From Pseudomonadota bacterium (GTDB lineage: Bacteria > Pseudomonadota > Alphaproteobacteria > UBA2136 > JAPKEQ01), in the NCBI GenBank assembly GCA_036141575.1, contig JAYZXF010000017.1, positions 1 to 64,000 of the forward strand: 64,000 bases of DNA, written 5' to 3'. Position 1 is the first letter of the stretch. Each line of letters begins with the position of its first letter. This document shows, piece after piece, positions 3 through 64,000 of this stretch. The translations under genes and the position numbers were made by a program. The notes beneath the pieces were generated by a model. That model was given only the letters and a program-made list of their open reading frames with translations, was not told the DNA's origin and did not search any database.

Positions 3-413
3 TTCAGGGAAGAGGATATTGCCTTTGTGGTGTGCAAGGAGCCTCACGGCTTCCCCGTCTTTCCACGTTTGCAGGTTCCACCCCAGCCGAATATCAAACT
101 GTCGGTCTGCCGGGAGTATCACGCAGATATGGTCGCTTTTGACCCTGAAACAGTCCCCGCAGCCACAACCGGCGAGGTGGAGCAGCCTGAGCTGTTCTTT
201 AGTCGTCGTGTACCGCCAACGCGCCCGAATGTTTGGACATACCAACTTGAGGCACCCACACCTGCTGGCACGTCTGGCAGCCCTGTGCTGACAAAAGGAA
301 ATGCCATTGCAGCCATGCATGTGGGTATGCACACGCTAGACAATAAAGGCTATGGTATTTCTATGGAAACCATGAATGATGCCTTCCAACGCATGCTGTT
401 GCGTCAGTCTTAA
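3..413 (+). CDS. Trypsin-like serine protease, C-terminal part (5' end outside window)
   Basis: The reading frame is open from the left edge, so this is the C-terminal ~136 residues of a larger protein. It shows DIAFVV near its start, like the catalytic Asp strand of S1/chymotrypsin-fold proteases, and GTSGSPV about 85 residues later, like the GxSGSP catalytic-serine motif. The strand VAMHVG-type sequence after the serine (AIAAMHVG) also fits the fold. The catalytic His should lie upstream of the window. The substrate and the presence of a signal peptide cannot be judged. It ends in a clear terminator at 423-447. Confidence 0.7.
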   Translation, partial: FREEDIAFVVCKEPHGFPVFPRLQVPPQPNIKLSVCREYHADMVAFDPETVPAATTGEVEQPELFFSRRVPPTRPNVWTYQLEAPTPAGTSGSPVLTKGNAIAAMHVGMHTLDNKGYGISMETMNDAFQRMLLRQS

Positions 414-19094: not shown

Positions 19095-19300
19095 CGGTTA
19101 TTTTTTATGGCTCTCCATCTTTTATTTTTGAAATTGTAAACTTCAAAAATAAAATTTGCCGCCATGTATGGTCTTGGTGCGCAAGTTTTTGAGCGCAAAG
19201 GCACAAAGTAGGGTAGGCTACAGTGTAGCCGTGCCTTTGCAAGATATACATAAAAACAGCAAGTGACAGGCAAATAGGCTGTGTACATGGCACAGTTTTT
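19095..19300 (+). repeat. Structured intergenic repeat, copy 4 (shortened)
   Basis: Has the AT-rich opening hairpin (about 19122-19155), ATGGTCTTGG, a reduced stem 1 (TGCGC/GCGCA near 19178-19197), then the terminal stem CAAAGGCAC (19196-19204) with GTGCCTTTG (19231-19239) around a GGCTACAG/GTAGCC hairpin, and the CAAGATATACATAAAA end box. Stem 2 is missing. Confidence 0.72.
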
Positions 19301-57000: not shown

Positions 57001-57029
57001 TTGCAATGCCTATTTTTTATGCATACACT
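57001..57029 (+). promoter_or_regulatory. Promoter of the first MFS attenuator leader
   Basis: TTGCAA, 17-bp spacer, TACACT; the start site would fall at the leader ORF ATG (57036). The same TTGCAA-GCCTA block occurs at 63486 before the third MFS gene. Confidence 0.5.
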
Positions 57030-57033
57030 TTAA

Positions 57034-57190
57034 GTATGAGACAGTATGTACCAGCACAAAATCAAGCCACTCGTTCTATGGGTGATTTTGTTGTGTCTGA
57101 AGGTAAACTTGCCATTACTGGTGGTAACCCTCAGCGGTAGGTCGGTCTCATACAATAAACACCGACCAACAGTTCCAAGGTCGGTTTTTT
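57034..57190 (+). promoter_or_regulatory. Transcription attenuator upstream of MFS gene 1
   Basis: Four pairing segments: 0 GTATGAGAC (57034-57042), 1 GGTCGGTCTCATAC (57140-57153), 2 ACCGACC (57161-57167), 3 GGTCGGT (57179-57185) followed by TTTTT. Segments 2:3 form a terminator, 1:2 an antiterminator, and 0:1 would block the antiterminator. The leader ORF spans segment 0 to segment 1. Confidence 0.7.
57036..57140 (+). CDS. Leader peptide of MFS gene 1, 34 aa
   Basis: ATG at 57036 lies at the expected transcription start, so translation would be leaderless. The peptide MRQYVPAQNQATRSMGDF and following ends at TAG 57138-57140, directly next to attenuator segment 1. A 33-codon ORF with the same placement precedes the third MFS gene. 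Likely function: its translation controls the attenuator rather than producing a useful peptide. Confidence 0.55.
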   Translation: MRQYVPAQNQATRSMGDFVVSEGKLAITGGNPQR

Positions 57191-57246
57191 AAACTCTAAA
57201 ATTCTCTCTCTGTAACTGTGGTCCCTAACAATAAGGAGACAGACCT

Positions 57247-58458
57247 ATGCGGACTTTACGCACACAGCATCCGCTTGATAGAAACACATACTTACTAAAT
57301 CTACTTGCCTTTTTAAACAACGCAATGTTCGTCATTCCGATTATTGTGGTGTATTACAAGGCGCATAAAAGCGTCGGTTTTACAGGCTTCCTTATCGGGG
57401 AAGCGGCTTTCGCTCTGGTGGTTATTCTGATGGAAGTTCCGAGTGGTTACCTGAGTGATGTATGGCGCCGTAAGTCTGTGTTATGGCTTGGTATGGCTTG
57501 GCAGATTCTTGGTTTCGGTCTCCTTTGGTTAGGAGATGGACTCTTCATGATGGTGCTTGCACAATCTATCGTTGGAGTAGGGGTAAGCCTCTACAGTGGT
57601 ACCAACAGGGCACTGCTTTACGATAGCTTGCAAGAGCGTGGCAAGGCTGCTGCTTATACCAAGCATAGCGGTGGTTTACACACTTGGGGTATGATCGGTG
57701 GTGCTGTGAGTGCACTTGTGGGTGGTTTCTTTTATGAAGCTCAACCGCATTTGCCAGCGATGCTTACTGTTGTATCTGTTGCGCTTGCTGCTTTGGTTGC
57801 TCTGTTTTTGGTGGAGCCGAACCGTCACAAGCAAGAGGTACAGAAAAATCCACTTGCTGATATGGTAAGTGTGATGAAATATACCCTTCACGGCCATAAA
57901 GAGGTGGCATGCCTAATCCTCTTTATGACCAGCGTATTCGTGACAACCAACCTGATGTTCTGGCTGCACCAACGCTACTGGGTTGATGGTGGCATTCCTG
58001 AGAGCATGTTTGGTGTTTTGATGGCTGTTGGTATGGGTATTAACGCCATTGGAGCGGGCTTTGCGCACCGTATAGAAAGCAAATTACGCTTTGTGCATAT
58101 TGTGTGTGTACTGACGTTTGTGACATTTGTGGCTTACGGGCTTGCTGTGCTTATGCCGCATAGGTTGGGTATCTTTGCTTTATTGCTAGGTGGCCTTGCC
58201 TATGGTATGGGAACGCCGCTTATGGATGCCGCTGTCAATAAACGCATTGAAAGCCATCGCCGTGCAACGGTGTTAAGTGTTAAAAGCCTAGTACACCGTT
58301 TGATCTTTCTGCCATTGAGCCTCTTGATTGGCCCACTTGCAGACGATTATAGCGCAAAGGTTGCTATGGCGAGCTTGTTGGTGTTCATGATTGTAGGTGT
58401 GGCGCTCAGCTTCATCTGTATGGCAAGGCACCATATGTTTGCGCCAAAAGGCACATAA
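57247..58458 (+). CDS. MFS transporter, 403 aa (copy 1)
   Basis: ATG at 57247 follows AAGGAGAC. About 12 membrane helices; helix 2-3 loop carries GYLSDVWRRKSVLWLG, the MFS GxLaDrxGRK-type signature. Closest relatives in the window are the next gene and the partial gene at 63738 (shared FLNNAMFV-PI-V-Y, VGFTGFLI-E, EVPSGYLSD, NPLADMVSVMKYTLHGHKE). Probably a proton-coupled drug/metabolite exporter of the inner membrane. Expression appears controlled by the attenuator upstream. Unlike most transporters here it has an ATCGAA tag after the stop. Confidence 0.88.
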   Translation: MRTLRTQHPLDRNTYLLNLLAFLNNAMFVIPIIVVYYKAHKSVGFTGFLIGEAAFALVVILMEVPSGYLSDVWRRKSVLWLGMAWQILGFGLLWLGDGLFMMVLAQSIVGVGVSLYSGTNRALLYDSLQERGKAAAYTKHSGGLHTWGMIGGAVSALVGGFFYEAQPHLPAMLTVVSVALAALVALFLVEPNRHKQEVQKNPLADMVSVMKYTLHGHKEVACLILFMTSVFVTTNLMFWLHQRYWVDGGIPESMFGVLMAVGMGINAIGAGFAHRIESKLRFVHIVCVLTFVTFVAYGLAVLMPHRLGIFALLLGGLAYGMGTPLMDAAVNKRIESHRRATVLSVKSLVHRLIFLPLSLLIGPLADDYSAKVAMASLLVFMIVGVALSFICMARHHMFAPKGT

Positions 58459-58539: not shown

Positions 58540-59730
58540 ATGAACAGTCACCTCAACAGAAACGTCTATCTTCTCAATGTGCTCGGCTTTTTAAATAATG
58601 CCATGTTTATTGTGCCGATTGTGGTTTTGTATTTAGAGGCACAAAAAGGTGTTGGCTTTACTGGGTTTTTAATTGGTGAATCTCTGTTTTCTCTGGTGAT
58701 GATCTTTATGGAAATTCCTAGCGGTTATTTAAGTGATGTATGGCGCAGGAAGCAGGTGCTTGCCATTGCCATGGTTTGGAAGACCATTGGTCTTTGTGTG
58801 CTCTTTTTCGGGAGCGGTTTTGCTATGGTTCTTTTCGCGCAGTGCCTTATTGGCATTGGCGCTAGCTTGAATAGTGGTACCAACAGTGCGCTGCTATACG
58901 ATACCTTGCTCTCTCAGGGGAGGGAAAAACTGTTTAGTAAGCTTAATGGGCGCCGACTTATGTTTGGTATGATTGGCTCATCGAGTACGGCTCTGGTGGG
59001 TGGCTACCTTTATACGCTCCATCCAGAGTTCCCAGTATTGATCTCTATTGTCTCTCTTATGCTGGCTGTACTAATTTGTGTATTTATGATTGAGCCTGAG
59101 CGTCATAAAGAGACCGTCCAGAAAAACCCGTTTGCAGATATGTTGAGCGTTATGAAATATACGCTTCATGGCCATAAAGAGCTGGCCTGCTTGATTGCCT
59201 TTATTACCAGCATCTTTGTGACTTGTAATTTGATGCTATGGGTACAGCAGCGCTACTGGATTGAAAGCGGTATCAGTGAAATTTGGTTTGGTGTGCTGAT
59301 GGCCATTGGTGTTGGCTTTAATGCTGTAGGGGCATTTTTTGCGCATAAGCTGGAAGAACGTTTGCGCTTTATTCATATTGTGAGCCTTATGGCGGCACTG
59401 CCTTTTATCTTTTATGGGCTCTCTATTGTACTGCCATACTCTGCGGGTATTTATACGCTTATGCTGGGTGGTTTTGCTTGGGGCATTGGTCAGCCGCTTA
59501 TGGATAGCGCAATTAACCACCGTGTGGGGAGTTCAAGGCGTGCAACAGTTTTGAGCGTAAAGAGCTTGGTGCACCGCTTTGCCTTTATTCCTTTAACGCT
59601 TCTGGCTGGGCCTCTCGCGGATATGTATAACGCAAAAGTCGCGATGACAGGGTTGTTGATCTTGATGGTTATGGGCGTGTTTTTCAGTGTTCTATGTATG
59701 AGGCACCACCATATGTTGAATGAGAGGTAG
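58540..59730 (+). CDS. MFS transporter, 396 aa (copy 2)
   Basis: ATG at 58540 (MNSHLNRNVYLLN) aligns with copy 1; the longer frame runs into the terminator. Twelve helices, EIPSGYLSDVWRRKQVLA motif, and the same NPFADMLSVMKYTLHGHKE loop. High similarity along the whole length shows tandem duplication. It lacks its own attenuator and starts 37 nt after the terminator, so it may be read through from copy 1. Weak ribosome site. Confidence 0.88.
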   Translation: MNSHLNRNVYLLNVLGFLNNAMFIVPIVVLYLEAQKGVGFTGFLIGESLFSLVMIFMEIPSGYLSDVWRRKQVLAIAMVWKTIGLCVLFFGSGFAMVLFAQCLIGIGASLNSGTNSALLYDTLLSQGREKLFSKLNGRRLMFGMIGSSSTALVGGYLYTLHPEFPVLISIVSLMLAVLICVFMIEPERHKETVQKNPFADMLSVMKYTLHGHKELACLIAFITSIFVTCNLMLWVQQRYWIESGISEIWFGVLMAIGVGFNAVGAFFAHKLEERLRFIHIVSLMAALPFIFYGLSIVLPYSAGIYTLMLGGFAWGIGQPLMDSAINHRVGSSRRATVLSVKSLVHRFAFIPLTLLAGPLADMYNAKVAMTGLLILMVMGVFFSVLCMRHHHMLNER

Positions 59731-61534: not shown

Positions 61535-62152
61535 TTATCGGCAATCGCCGCGCCATTCGCCGTTAGAGTTGTAGCGACAGAAGCTATTACTTTGAATTTC
61601 ATAGCTACCGTTATTACAACGGACAAAAGCTGTACCATAATTGGTGTCATGGCTACATTCTCCGCCGTAAGCATCAGATGTTGAAGAAATGACGCCATGT
61701 GGTGTTGGAGATGTGCGTGCAGTACACGTGAGTGCTCTGCTGCCATATGAACCTGTCCATGTAATTGTAACTTGCCCACATCCGTTACCTGATGAAACAG
61801 TATCCGTGCCGCCGAGATCTTCATGAGAGACACAACCACTTCCATTGGCTTCAGGATGGTCAGGCCAGTAAATACTTGTAGTGCTGCGGTCATTACAAGC
61901 CGTACGTCTGTTTTCTTGCGCGGTAAGTGCATTAATTTGTGCTTCTGCGGCATCCATTTCCGCCTCAACTGTATCCATCTCACTTTCAAGTGTATCAATG
62001 CGAGGCCTTACACTATTGGCAAAGCTTTCCATCATGTTTTTGAGGGATGTCATTTGACGAGACAGCCCTTCACCGCGCGTTGTTTGCGTAAAGGCAGTCA
62101 CGCCTACTGAGACGCAGAGAGTTGTTGTGAGAATAAGTTTTGTATATTTCAT
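61535..62152 (-). CDS. Secreted Cys-rich coiled-coil protein, 205 aa (array member 3)
   Basis: Signal peptide at about 1-23 (LILTTTLCVSVGVTAFTQT). A heptad coiled coil at about 30-80 (LKNMMESFANSVRPRIDTLESEMDTVEAEMDAAEAQINAL) precedes a conserved block SIYWPDHPEANGSGCVSHEDLG and a Cys-rich C-terminus ending GDCR. Closely related to the two upstream genes. The coiled coil suggests trimeric or dimeric surface or periplasmic assembly; disulfides would stabilise the C-terminal domain. No known family recognised. Confidence 0.78.
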   Translation of the reverse strand: MKYTKLILTTTLCVSVGVTAFTQTTRGEGLSRQMTSLKNMMESFANSVRPRIDTLESEMDTVEAEMDAAEAQINALTAQENRRTACNDRSTTSIYWPDHPEANGSGCVSHEDLGGTDTVSSGNGCGQVTITWTGSYGSRALTCTARTSPTPHGVISSTSDAYGGECSHDTNYGTAFVRCNNGSYEIQSNSFCRYNSNGEWRGDCR

Positions 62153-62171
62153 AGCTTTTTCTTTTGTTTAA

Positions 62172-62744
62172 TTAACGACAGCTATTCCAAGTACGTCTAC
62201 ATGTTCTACCCGTTCCAACAAATGAGTATGAACCATTAGAGCAACGTACTCGAGCTGATCCTAGATATTGATCTCGGCAACCTGTGTCAGGATCATTGAT
62301 GATAATTTCAATAGAATCAGGTGTTGGAGGAGTGCTTGCCATACATGTAGCCCCATTACCTGTCCATGTAATAGTTTGCACACCACATCCTTGGTTGGTT
62401 GTGGTGGTTGTCTGTCCTGTACCAAGGTCATTATGAGAGACGCAGCCATTTCCATTAGCATCAGGATGATCAGGCCAATAGATACTTGTATTAGTACGGT
62501 CATTACAAGCCGTTCGTCTGTTTTCCTGAGCTGTAAGTGCGTTAATTTGCGCTTCAGCAGCATTCATTTCAGTTTCTAAGGTTGTAATGCGAGGTCGTAT
62601 ATCATTGGCAAAACTTTCCATCATGTTTTTGAGAGAGACCACTTGGCGAGAAATACCTTCACCTGCACGCGTTTGTGAAAAGGCAGCTGTACCAAGCGAA
62701 GCGCTCAATACTGTTACAATAAGTAGTTTCTGAAATTTCATCAT
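62172..62744 (-). CDS. Secreted Cys-rich coiled-coil protein, 190 aa (array member 2)
   Basis: Start at 62744 or the adjacent Met 62741, with AAAGGAC upstream. Same layout as its neighbours: signal peptide, coiled coil (MMESFANDIRPRITTLETEM), SIYWPDHPDANGNGCVSHNDLG and C-terminal RCSNGSY followed by CR. The coiled coil is one heptad set shorter than in member 3. The 19-nt gap to member 3 indicates an operon. Confidence 0.78.
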   Translation of the reverse strand: MMKFQKLLIVTVLSASLGTAAFSQTRAGEGISRQVVSLKNMMESFANDIRPRITTLETEMNAAEAQINALTAQENRRTACNDRTNTSIYWPDHPDANGNGCVSHNDLGTGQTTTTTNQGCGVQTITWTGNGATCMASTPPTPDSIEIIINDPDTGCRDQYLGSARVRCSNGSYSFVGTGRTCRRTWNSCR

Positions 62745-62756
62745 AATGTCCTTTAT

Positions 62757-63353
62757 CTATCGACAACTGCCGCCCCAGTCTGGATGGCTTCTTGATACGC
62801 CTTCGCAAACAGTTGGCTCTGATGTTACATGCTCATATGTTCCGTTATTACATCTAAAGGTGGCTTGTCCTCGTACGCCTGTGGTGTATCTGTTTTGGCA
62901 AGTTGGACTCGGGGCAGTGTTGTAGTTAAATACATATGTAAGCCCATCAGGAATTGAGCTCGCATTACCACTGCATGTTCTGCCGTTAGCTGTCCATGAT
63001 ACCGTACGGTTTTGACAGCCTGCACCTGTTGTTACAGTTTCACCTGTACCAAGGTCTTCGTGAGAAACACAGCCTGTTGTCGCATCTGCTTCTGGATGGT
63101 TTGGCCAGTAGATGCTGGAATCACCAGAAATGTTGTTACACGTCGTACGTTCATTTTCACGGTCTTGAAGGTCTGAAACATCGGTTTCTAGTGTGTTGAT
63201 GCGTGGGCGGATGTCATTGGCAAAGCTTTCCATCATGCTTTTAAGAGAGATAACTTGGCGAGATAGTCCTTCGCCACGTATCGTTTGTGCAAACGCCGCA
63301 AAGCCAACAGATGTACAAACAACTGCTGTAATAATTAAACTCTTGTATTTCAT
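62757..63353 (-). CDS. Secreted Cys-rich coiled-coil protein, 198 aa (array member 1)
   Basis: First gene of the array. Signal peptide, shorter coiled coil (PRINTLETDVSDLQDRENERTTC), SIYWPNHPEADATTGCVSHEDLG, and RCNNGTY before the last Cys pair, ending GGSCR. Only 12 nt separate it from member 2. The variable C-terminal loops contrast with the constant N-terminal half, which suggests diversification for binding. Confidence 0.78.
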   Translation of the reverse strand: MKYKSLIITAVVCTSVGFAAFAQTIRGEGLSRQVISLKSMMESFANDIRPRINTLETDVSDLQDRENERTTCNNISGDSSIYWPNHPEADATTGCVSHEDLGTGETVTTGAGCQNRTVSWTANGRTCSGNASSIPDGLTYVFNYNTAPSPTCQNRYTTGVRGQATFRCNNGTYEHVTSEPTVCEGVSRSHPDWGGSCR

Positions 63354-63485
63354 AGCAATACCCCTTTATCAAGTCCCAGTAATATTTTATGGATCATAGC
63401 ATTAATTAAACTGCCATTTTATATTGCGACGCTAAGAGTTTGTTTCCAGAATGACCTATGTTGCGAAAAAAACTCAAAAAAGGGG

Positions 63486-63683
63486 TTGCAACGCCTAAAA
63501 ATACGCGTCATGCTTTTAGTTATGAAAAGATTTAACGACCAAAAACCTATGATGAACCATATGCACTCCACTTGGGGTATGTATGGCATGTTTACGTGTA
63601 AACGTAATCGCTTCATCGGGTAAAAGGGTCGTTACCAGAATAAAAACAACACAATCGACCCAGTTCTAGGGTCGAATTTTTTA
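63486..63683 (+). promoter_or_regulatory. Promoter and transcription attenuator upstream of MFS gene 3
   Basis: TTGCAACGCCTA at 63486 matches the start of the first attenuator. Segments: 0 AACGACC (63534-63540), 1 GGGTCGTT (63626-63633), 2 TCGACCC (63655-63661), 3 GGGTCGA (63669-63675) followed by ATTTTTT. Pairings 0:1, 1:2 and 2:3 are mutually exclusive, as in the 57 kb leader, although the sequences differ. Confidence 0.7.
63522..63623 (+). CDS. Leader peptide of MFS gene 3, 33 aa
   Basis: ATG at 63522 in TTTAGTTATGAAA corresponds to TTTAAGTATGAGA at the first leader. The peptide MKRFNDQKPMMNHMHSTW continues to TAA 63621-63623, 2 nt before segment 1. Met-rich and basic. Same length class and placement as the first leader but a different sequence. 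Confidence 0.5.
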   Translation: MKRFNDQKPMMNHMHSTWGMYGMFTCKRNRFIG

Positions 63684-63737: not shown

Positions 63738-64000
63738 ATGAGTGACGTACTGGACGCAAATAGGATTGCGAGACAAAACATTATCATTACAAACGCATTA
63801 TCTTTCCTGAATAATGCCATGTTTGTTGTGCCGATTATTGTGGTGTATTACGCCGCACAAAAAAGCGTAGGGCTTACTGGGTTTCTAGTAAGTGAAGCTG
63901 CGTTTGCTTTGGCCATGGTCATGATGGAAGTACCAAGCGGGTACCTTAGTGACCACTGGAAGCGTAAGTACACGCTGGCTCTTGGGTTTGTTATTCAAAC
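63738..64000 (+). CDS. MFS transporter, N-terminal part (copy 3, cut by window edge)
   Basis: ATG at 63738 follows CAGGAGA. The visible 87 residues match copies 1 and 2: SFLNNAMFVVPIIVVYYAAQKSVGLTGFL and MEVPSGYLSDHWKRK. Two to three membrane helices are visible. Preceded by the second attenuator leader. Confidence 0.85.
   Translation, partial: MSDVLDANRIARQNIIITNALSFLNNAMFVVPIIVVYYAAQKSVGLTGFLVSEAAFALAMVMMEVPSGYLSDHWKRKYTLALGFVIQ

Follow-up and report, generated by a model that had tools for sequence, protein, structure and literature searches.

What is a short reading frame without a ribosome-binding site, set among four mutually complementary RNA segments, doing in front of an exporter gene? 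The question arises near the end of a 64,000-nt stretch of an alphaproteobacterial contig (JAYZXF010000017.1, positions 1 to 64,000; hereafter the window), where such a leader precedes the MFS gene MFS1. We consider it likely that this leader is a ribosome-read transcription attenuator of the trp/mef type, whose leaderless ORF senses slowed elongation and thereby turns on the exporter.

The product of MFS1 is of the exporter type. It matches the HP1165 and Tet efflux models weakly, far below their cut-offs, and sequence comparison revealed no relative of solved structure. MFS2, upstream of which we saw no leader, probably belongs to the same operon. Both are probable drug-export genes. The start of a paralog, MFS3, lies at the end of the window. 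No leader precedes the remaining MFS genes that we saw in this genome (C11:78916 and C17:284090). At 61535-63355, the minus strand encodes adjacent paralogous small secreted-looking proteins with a signal-peptide-like start and a similar coiled N-terminal region; the one tested (61535-62152) has no Pfam match.

A previous sequence-only reading of this locus had proposed that four segments upstream of MFS1 can form three mutually exclusive pairings, that the ORF starts within segment 0, and that its stop codon lies against segment 1. We found all of these elements, with boundaries shifted by about one base (Table 1). Segments 0, 1, 2 and 3, the last ending in a run of six T, can pair as 0:1, 1:2 or 2:3; the ATG lies inside segment 0, and segment 1 shares its first base with the end of the stop codon. 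No Shine-Dalgarno sequence precedes the 34-codon ORF, which had been described as leaderless, and the spacing of the putative promoter, with 6 nt between the -10 element and the ATG, predicts a transcription start at the ATG. By our own count this promoter matches the consensus at 8 of 12 positions. A generic promoter scan, which demands a closer match, listed no site at this leader, and we call the promoter because it is conserved across leaders (see below). The terminated RNA is predicted to be about 155 nt long. As a free 166-nt RNA, the leader folds with -53 kcal/mol, 4.1 sd lower than dinucleotide shuffles (-36.9 +/- 3.9; 0 of 200 shuffles as low), and in this fold 0:1 and 2:3 are formed together. 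The terminator was missed by a generic scan because its loop of 11 nt exceeds the 8-nt limit of that scan, and Rfam returned no family match above the gathering score anywhere in the window.

Table 1. Features of the two leaders in the window and of the MFS genes downstream.
Feature	Position	Strand	Remarks
Predicted promoter, MFS1 leader	57001..57029	+	-35 TTGCAA 57001-57006, 17-nt spacer, -10 TACACT 57024-57029
Predicted transcription start, MFS1 leader	at ATG 57036 or 1-2 nt 5' of ATG	+	from promoter spacing
MFS1 leader ORF, 34 codons	57036..57140	+	MRQYVPAQNQATRSMGDFVVSEGKLAITGGNPQR, then stop; no Shine-Dalgarno; predicted leaderless
Segment 0, GTATGAGAC	57034..57042	+	includes start codon; pairs with segment 1; putative anti-antiterminator
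Segment 1, GGTCGGTCTCATAC	57140..57153	+	first G is last base of TAG stop
Segment 2, ACCGACC	57161..57167	+	partner of segment 1 (antiterminator) or segment 3 (terminator)
Segment 3, GGTCGGT, and T-run	57179..57190	+	segment 3 57179-57185, five more T 57186-57190 (six T in all); predicted intrinsic terminator
MFS1	57247..58458	+	403 aa; exporter-type MFS; PF07690, E 2.4e-26; RBS AAGGAGA 57233-57239
MFS2	58540..59730	+	58% identical to MFS1; 81 nt 3' of MFS1
Predicted promoter, second leader	63486..63514	+	TTGCAA, 17 nt, CATGCT; geometry common to leaders
Second leader ORF, 33 codons	63522..63623	+	MKRFNDQKPMMNHMHSTWGMYGMFTCKRNRFIG, then stop; peptide unrelated to MFS1 leader; ortholog in L012
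Second leader segment 0, AACGACC	63534..63540	+	from fold; pairs with GGTCGTT
Second leader segment 1, GGGTCGTT	63626..63633	+	
Second leader segment 2, TCGACCC	63655..63661	+	
Second leader segment 3, GGGTCGA, and T-run	63669..63682	+	predicted terminator
MFS3 (start only)	63738..64000	+	510-aa paralog; runs past window end

Absent from the sequence-only reading is a second four-segment leader at 63486-63682, upstream of MFS3. Since it possesses its own promoter, ORF and segments 0 to 3, the four-segment plan recurs in front of a paralog with a different leader sequence. A genome of the same genus (G001) contains orthologs of both leaders. Its MFS1 leader peptide is 65% identical to that in the window and of equal length, and the 1:2 and 2:3 pairings are retained; segment 1 has changed so that 0:1 is reduced to 5 of 9 bp (GAGAC:GTCTC), but folding still sequesters segment 1. 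In the MFS3 leader of G001, segment 0 has changed from AACGACC to AGCGACC, and its pairing with GGTCGTT is kept by way of G-U. Segment 1 begins -1 to +2 nt from the stop codon in the four leaders of the genus. The pN/pS ratios of the leader ORFs (0.58 for the MFS1 leader, 0.33 for the MFS3 leader), next to those of the MFS coding regions (0.23 and 0.11), are consistent with ORFs that are translated into peptides under only loose constraint.

Sequence similarity carries no further than this congener. A search of 143 relatives with the leader peptide gave a convincing match in G001 only, together with weak matches in G032, G043, G076, G093 and G120 (E 0.017-0.75), and one weak peptide match that we read through, L007, had no leader anatomy. 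A scan of genome contigs matched only the contig of the congener, and one scan of viral contigs with MFS1 found nothing. Anatomy reaches further: when we inspected the regions ahead of MFS homologs across genomes of the order, we found leaders in eight further genomes, where sequence search had failed. Leaders of the same promoter-ATG geometry are present in 10 of the 11 order genomes with this MFS subfamily (G000, G001, G002, G004, G006, G007, G009, G012, G013 and G015), and G011 has none upstream of its subfamily member. In a tree of the MFS proteins, every leader-bearing MFS falls in one clade with support of 98/98, within which some members, including the second genes of pairs (MFS2 and G006b), have no leader.

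All 13 leaders, one of them from outside the order, conform to TTG-16..18-NANNNT-6..7-ATG without any motif resembling a Shine-Dalgarno sequence, and the spacer after TTGNNN is 17 nt in 11 of them. For comparison, 2.9% of the 2733 ATGs in the window satisfy the promoter-ATG rule when a wider gap of 4-9 nt is allowed. The full score of 13 is somewhat favoured by selection, since we picked out the ORFs by eye while looking for a promoter, but their uniform spacing was no part of that choice. From this spacing we infer that transcription starts at the leader ATG. The peptides, including that of the outlier G117, are 27-34 aa long, mostly without mutual similarity and without a recognisable motif common to the order, and the leaders can be aligned by sequence only between pairs of orthologs.

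The downstream parts vary more. The leaders of G004, G006, G007, G009 and G117 have no good T-run, and those of G002, G004, G007, G009, G013 and G015 combine a leaderless ORF and a hairpin with no clear switch in our model; these six may switch by other pairings or not at all. G117 (L060), from another order, carries a full and perfect set of four segments (ACCAGCC, GGGGCTGG, ACCAGCCC and GGGCTGGT) after a leaderless ORF. Because AAACTCC instead of a T-run follows this set, the output step in G117 must be something other than an ordinary intrinsic terminator. Among the MFS members outside the order, L059, L061 and L063-L067 showed no leader, L060 and L062 have one, and L068 was left out of this survey for want of a usable upstream region. 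The leader at L062 (G196, minus strand) is a 39-codon uORF with an SD-like GGAG upstream of the MFS gene; just past its stop codon lies GTTTTTA, for which the A-tract of a strong terminator is a possible partner, and this pairing would be an antiterminator of different design. Some local sequence sharing was seen as well. The leader peptides of the congeners G002 and G013 (L021 and L039) differ almost throughout and have a C-terminal VRxSSVExVV in common; ACCACAGGCGGCC downstream of the leader is common to both genomes and nearly so in G015; and at L015, L018, L019 and L020 the hairpins 3' of the leader ORF finish in a common CCGTTTC(CC) tail instead of a T-run.

To judge how often such an arrangement occurs by chance, we scanned 240 kb blindly for a terminator with an overlapping segment 1, an ORF stop within 3 nt and a promoter at leaderless spacing. 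The scan returned five leaders and one probably false match (L012:4543), against a mean of 0.15 per shuffle in 40 shuffles, which were built from the same sequence, the scanned loci being enriched for MFS genes. The five are the window leader, the MFS3 leader, their G001 orthologs and a leader of G012, which is counted once. A relaxed scan also picked up, at position 19164 of the window, a promoter-like site, a 15-codon ORF and a terminator with an overlapping upstream segment, probably by chance.

Codon choice in the leader ORFs provides a separate line of evidence. We recoded six leader ORFs synonymously, with the codon usage of three window genes applied to all six, and computed the probability of the 1:2 pairing, P(1:2), without a ribosome. 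Recoding raised the mean P(1:2) to 0.52-0.90 and freed segment 1 in most cases. The observed values were 0.000, 0.026, 0.035, 0.539, 0.095 and 0.004, which rank, in the same order, at 0.3%, 2%, 0%, 11.7%, 3% and 11.3%, hence all within the lowest 0-12% of recodings. The first of these is the leader singled out by the sequence-only reading, and the other five are independent of that choice. Only 0.3% of synonymous recodings of the window leader sequester segment 1 as well as the native codons do, and for the second leader 0 of 300 gave a P(1:2) as low. Because the observed P(1:2) ranks so low among recodings, codon choice helps to shut segment 1 in the absence of a ribosome; at the level of sequence, this demonstrates selection on codons for the 0:1 pairing.

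How the leader may switch was computed for the six leaders with a ribosome mask that hides the RNA as far as 16 nt beyond the P-site; the remainder was folded as it stands before segment 3 is made. In these calculations P(1:2) is 0-0.10 without a ribosome (0.54 in the MFS3 leader of G001), mostly 0.7-1.0 when a ribosome occupies one of codons 1 to about 29, and 0 when it has reached the last codons. The last value agrees with the earlier suggestion that segment 1 is covered once a ribosome reaches the stop codon, which favours the terminator. The companion claim, that a ribosome stalled early opens 0:1 and lets 1:2 form, needs amending: the switching logic is supported by mask folding, the G001 ortholog, the divergent paralog and recoding, but opening is not confined to early stalls, as in the model the antiterminator becomes available with a block at almost every codon between 1 and about 30. 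Exceptions are codons 7-10 of the window leader (P(1:2) 0.15-0.39) and a dip at codons 17-23 in that of G012. When the folds of the window and MFS3 leaders are taken to full equilibrium, the terminator outcompetes 1:2 for many positions of the ribosome, so that in the genus the decision must be kinetic, with 1:2 forming first and RNA polymerase passing. In the leader of G006, and in that of G012 for the pairing followed, the terminator is disfavoured at equilibrium too. The window leader thus displays what is expected of a trp-type attenuator: exclusive antiterminator and intrinsic-terminator hairpins after a short ORF, a stop codon placed where a terminating ribosome would mask the antiterminator strand, and a 0:1 pairing predicted to give termination without translation, although this last is weaker in the MFS3 leader of G001.

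An attenuator could respond to signals other than a general slowing of elongation. In arrest leaders such as those of erm and mef, the nascent peptide stalls with one antibiotic class only and its sequence matters. The MFS3 leaders retain STWGMYxMFTCKRNRxIG, in which R-N-R (+X+) is reminiscent of the MRLR of mef(E) and erm(K) (PMC4335068), and the pN/pS of 0.33 for the MFS3 leader points in the same direction. However, the +X+ motif is absent from the MFS1 leaders, with RNR confined to the MFS3 leaders; a conserved motif such as MRLR was not found, nor is any peptide motif recognisable across the order; the peptide search was convincing for the congener only, and the leader pN/pS exceeds that of the MFS coding sequences (0.11-0.23). 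Drug-specific arrest therefore seems unlikely to us. Sensing of one charged tRNA, as in the trp and his attenuators, would employ the same four-segment plan, and slow codons would act likewise. No leader contains a run of a single codon, though, and the controlled gene encodes an MFS exporter and not a biosynthetic enzyme, which makes this reading improbable; the Met-rich MFS3 leader leaves a small doubt.

It is more improbable still that the leader acts mainly in trans, as a small RNA or peptide after the manner of rnTrpL/peTrpL in Sinorhizobium, with control in cis being secondary. A leaderless RNA of about 155 nt with a translatable ORF is predicted here, for which there is a precedent (PMC7298713), but the peptide is poorly conserved beyond the genus and the selection seen on the sequence fits a switch in cis. 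Short ORFs being common, a promoter, an ORF and the ordinary terminator of the upstream region could also have come together by chance. The independent recurrence of the arrangement before MFS3, in G001 and in other families, together with the shuffle, background and recoding tests, makes such a coincidence barely credible.

We thus return to a ribosome-read attenuator that responds to slowed elongation. With transcription starting at the ATG, a ribosome could load on the nascent RNA at its 5' end. If none did, segment 0 would trap segment 1 and leave segment 2 free for the 2:3 terminator; if translation ran smoothly, the ribosome at the stop codon would cover segment 1 and the terminator would form again. 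If instead the ribosome slowed down or halted at most positions ahead of the final four codons, segment 0 would be held open, and the freed segment 1 would capture segment 2 before segment 3 is made, so that RNA polymerase would carry on into the downstream exporter gene or genes. Since a block at almost any point suffices and peptide sequences vary freely from one species to the next, what the leader reports is most likely elongation stress in general, such as that imposed by drugs acting on the ribosome, rather than one amino acid. As no leader contains a run of control codons and the gene probably encodes an exporter, the most economical signal would be a general slowing, with compounds that target the ribosome as its most natural cause, and induction of the exporter by translation inhibitors is plausible. 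For the order as a whole, with G117 as at least one outlier in another order, we see an even case for a leaderless ORF of 27-34 codons that serves as a general elongation-stress sensor through its length and stop position rather than its peptide, with geometry kept while peptides and RNA sequences drift almost without restraint; this device would be common to the members of one MFS exporter subfamily. Were this mechanism correct, it would constitute a compact translation-stress sensor that works with neither a protein regulator nor a conserved arrest peptide, in bacteria with small genomes that are represented here mainly by fragmented assemblies. With translation beginning at the very 5' end, the first ribosome could load immediately and elongation speed would be uncoupled from Shine-Dalgarno recognition, and induction of the exporter by chemically different ribosome drugs would be accounted for.

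Among the systems with which the window leader can be compared is cmlA, an MFS pump of Gram-negatives. This chloramphenicol export gene is likewise controlled by a leader, but through translation attenuation instead of transcription termination (reviewed in PMC5418344). The mef(E)/mel attenuator of streptococci puts an MFS drug pump under transcription attenuation by a translated leader ORF and a Rho-independent terminator, with readthrough favoured by a stalled ribosome, as is proposed for the window leader and its probable exporter; it differs by its Gram-positive host, an 8-codon leader (MTASMRLR) with a Shine-Dalgarno sequence, a 327-nt leader and macrolide-specific arrest (PMC4335068). 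The trp-type attenuator of Sinorhizobium trpLE(G) has the four-segment logic in an alphaproteobacterium and an RNA that begins with the ATG of its leader, whereas its 14-aa peptide contains Trp codons, senses Trp and controls biosynthesis (PMC7298713). In ilvBNC of Corynebacterium glutamicum, a leaderless leader ORF is followed by a first hairpin termed the antiantiterminator, then by the antiterminator and the terminator, but the host is an actinobacterium and branched-chain amino acids are sensed (PMC11857589). The multipurpose uORF of toiL-topAI in Gram-negative E. coli, where a stall anywhere, caused by at least five antibiotic classes, relieves repression, resembles the proposed leader in its breadth, yet acts on the RBS and Rho without an intrinsic terminator and has a toxin-antitoxin target (PMC12121999). 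The duf1127 uORF of S. meliloti is an alphaproteobacterial case of uORF-dependent transcription attenuation relieved by tetracycline, although it involves a Rho-dependent element, a uORF with an RBS and an unrelated target (PMC12218461). In view of the leaderless Sinorhizobium trpL (PMC7298713), this tetracycline-responsive uORF (PMC12218461) and similar leaders across the order, to call the arrangement unexpected in an alphaproteobacterium, as had been done from sequence, was too strong. A leaderless attenuator for efflux genes in Alphaproteobacteria was not reported in the open-access literature that we searched; there are precedents both for leaderless leader ORFs and for uORFs that sense antibiotics, and what appears to be new is their joint use, across an order, to regulate one MFS subfamily.
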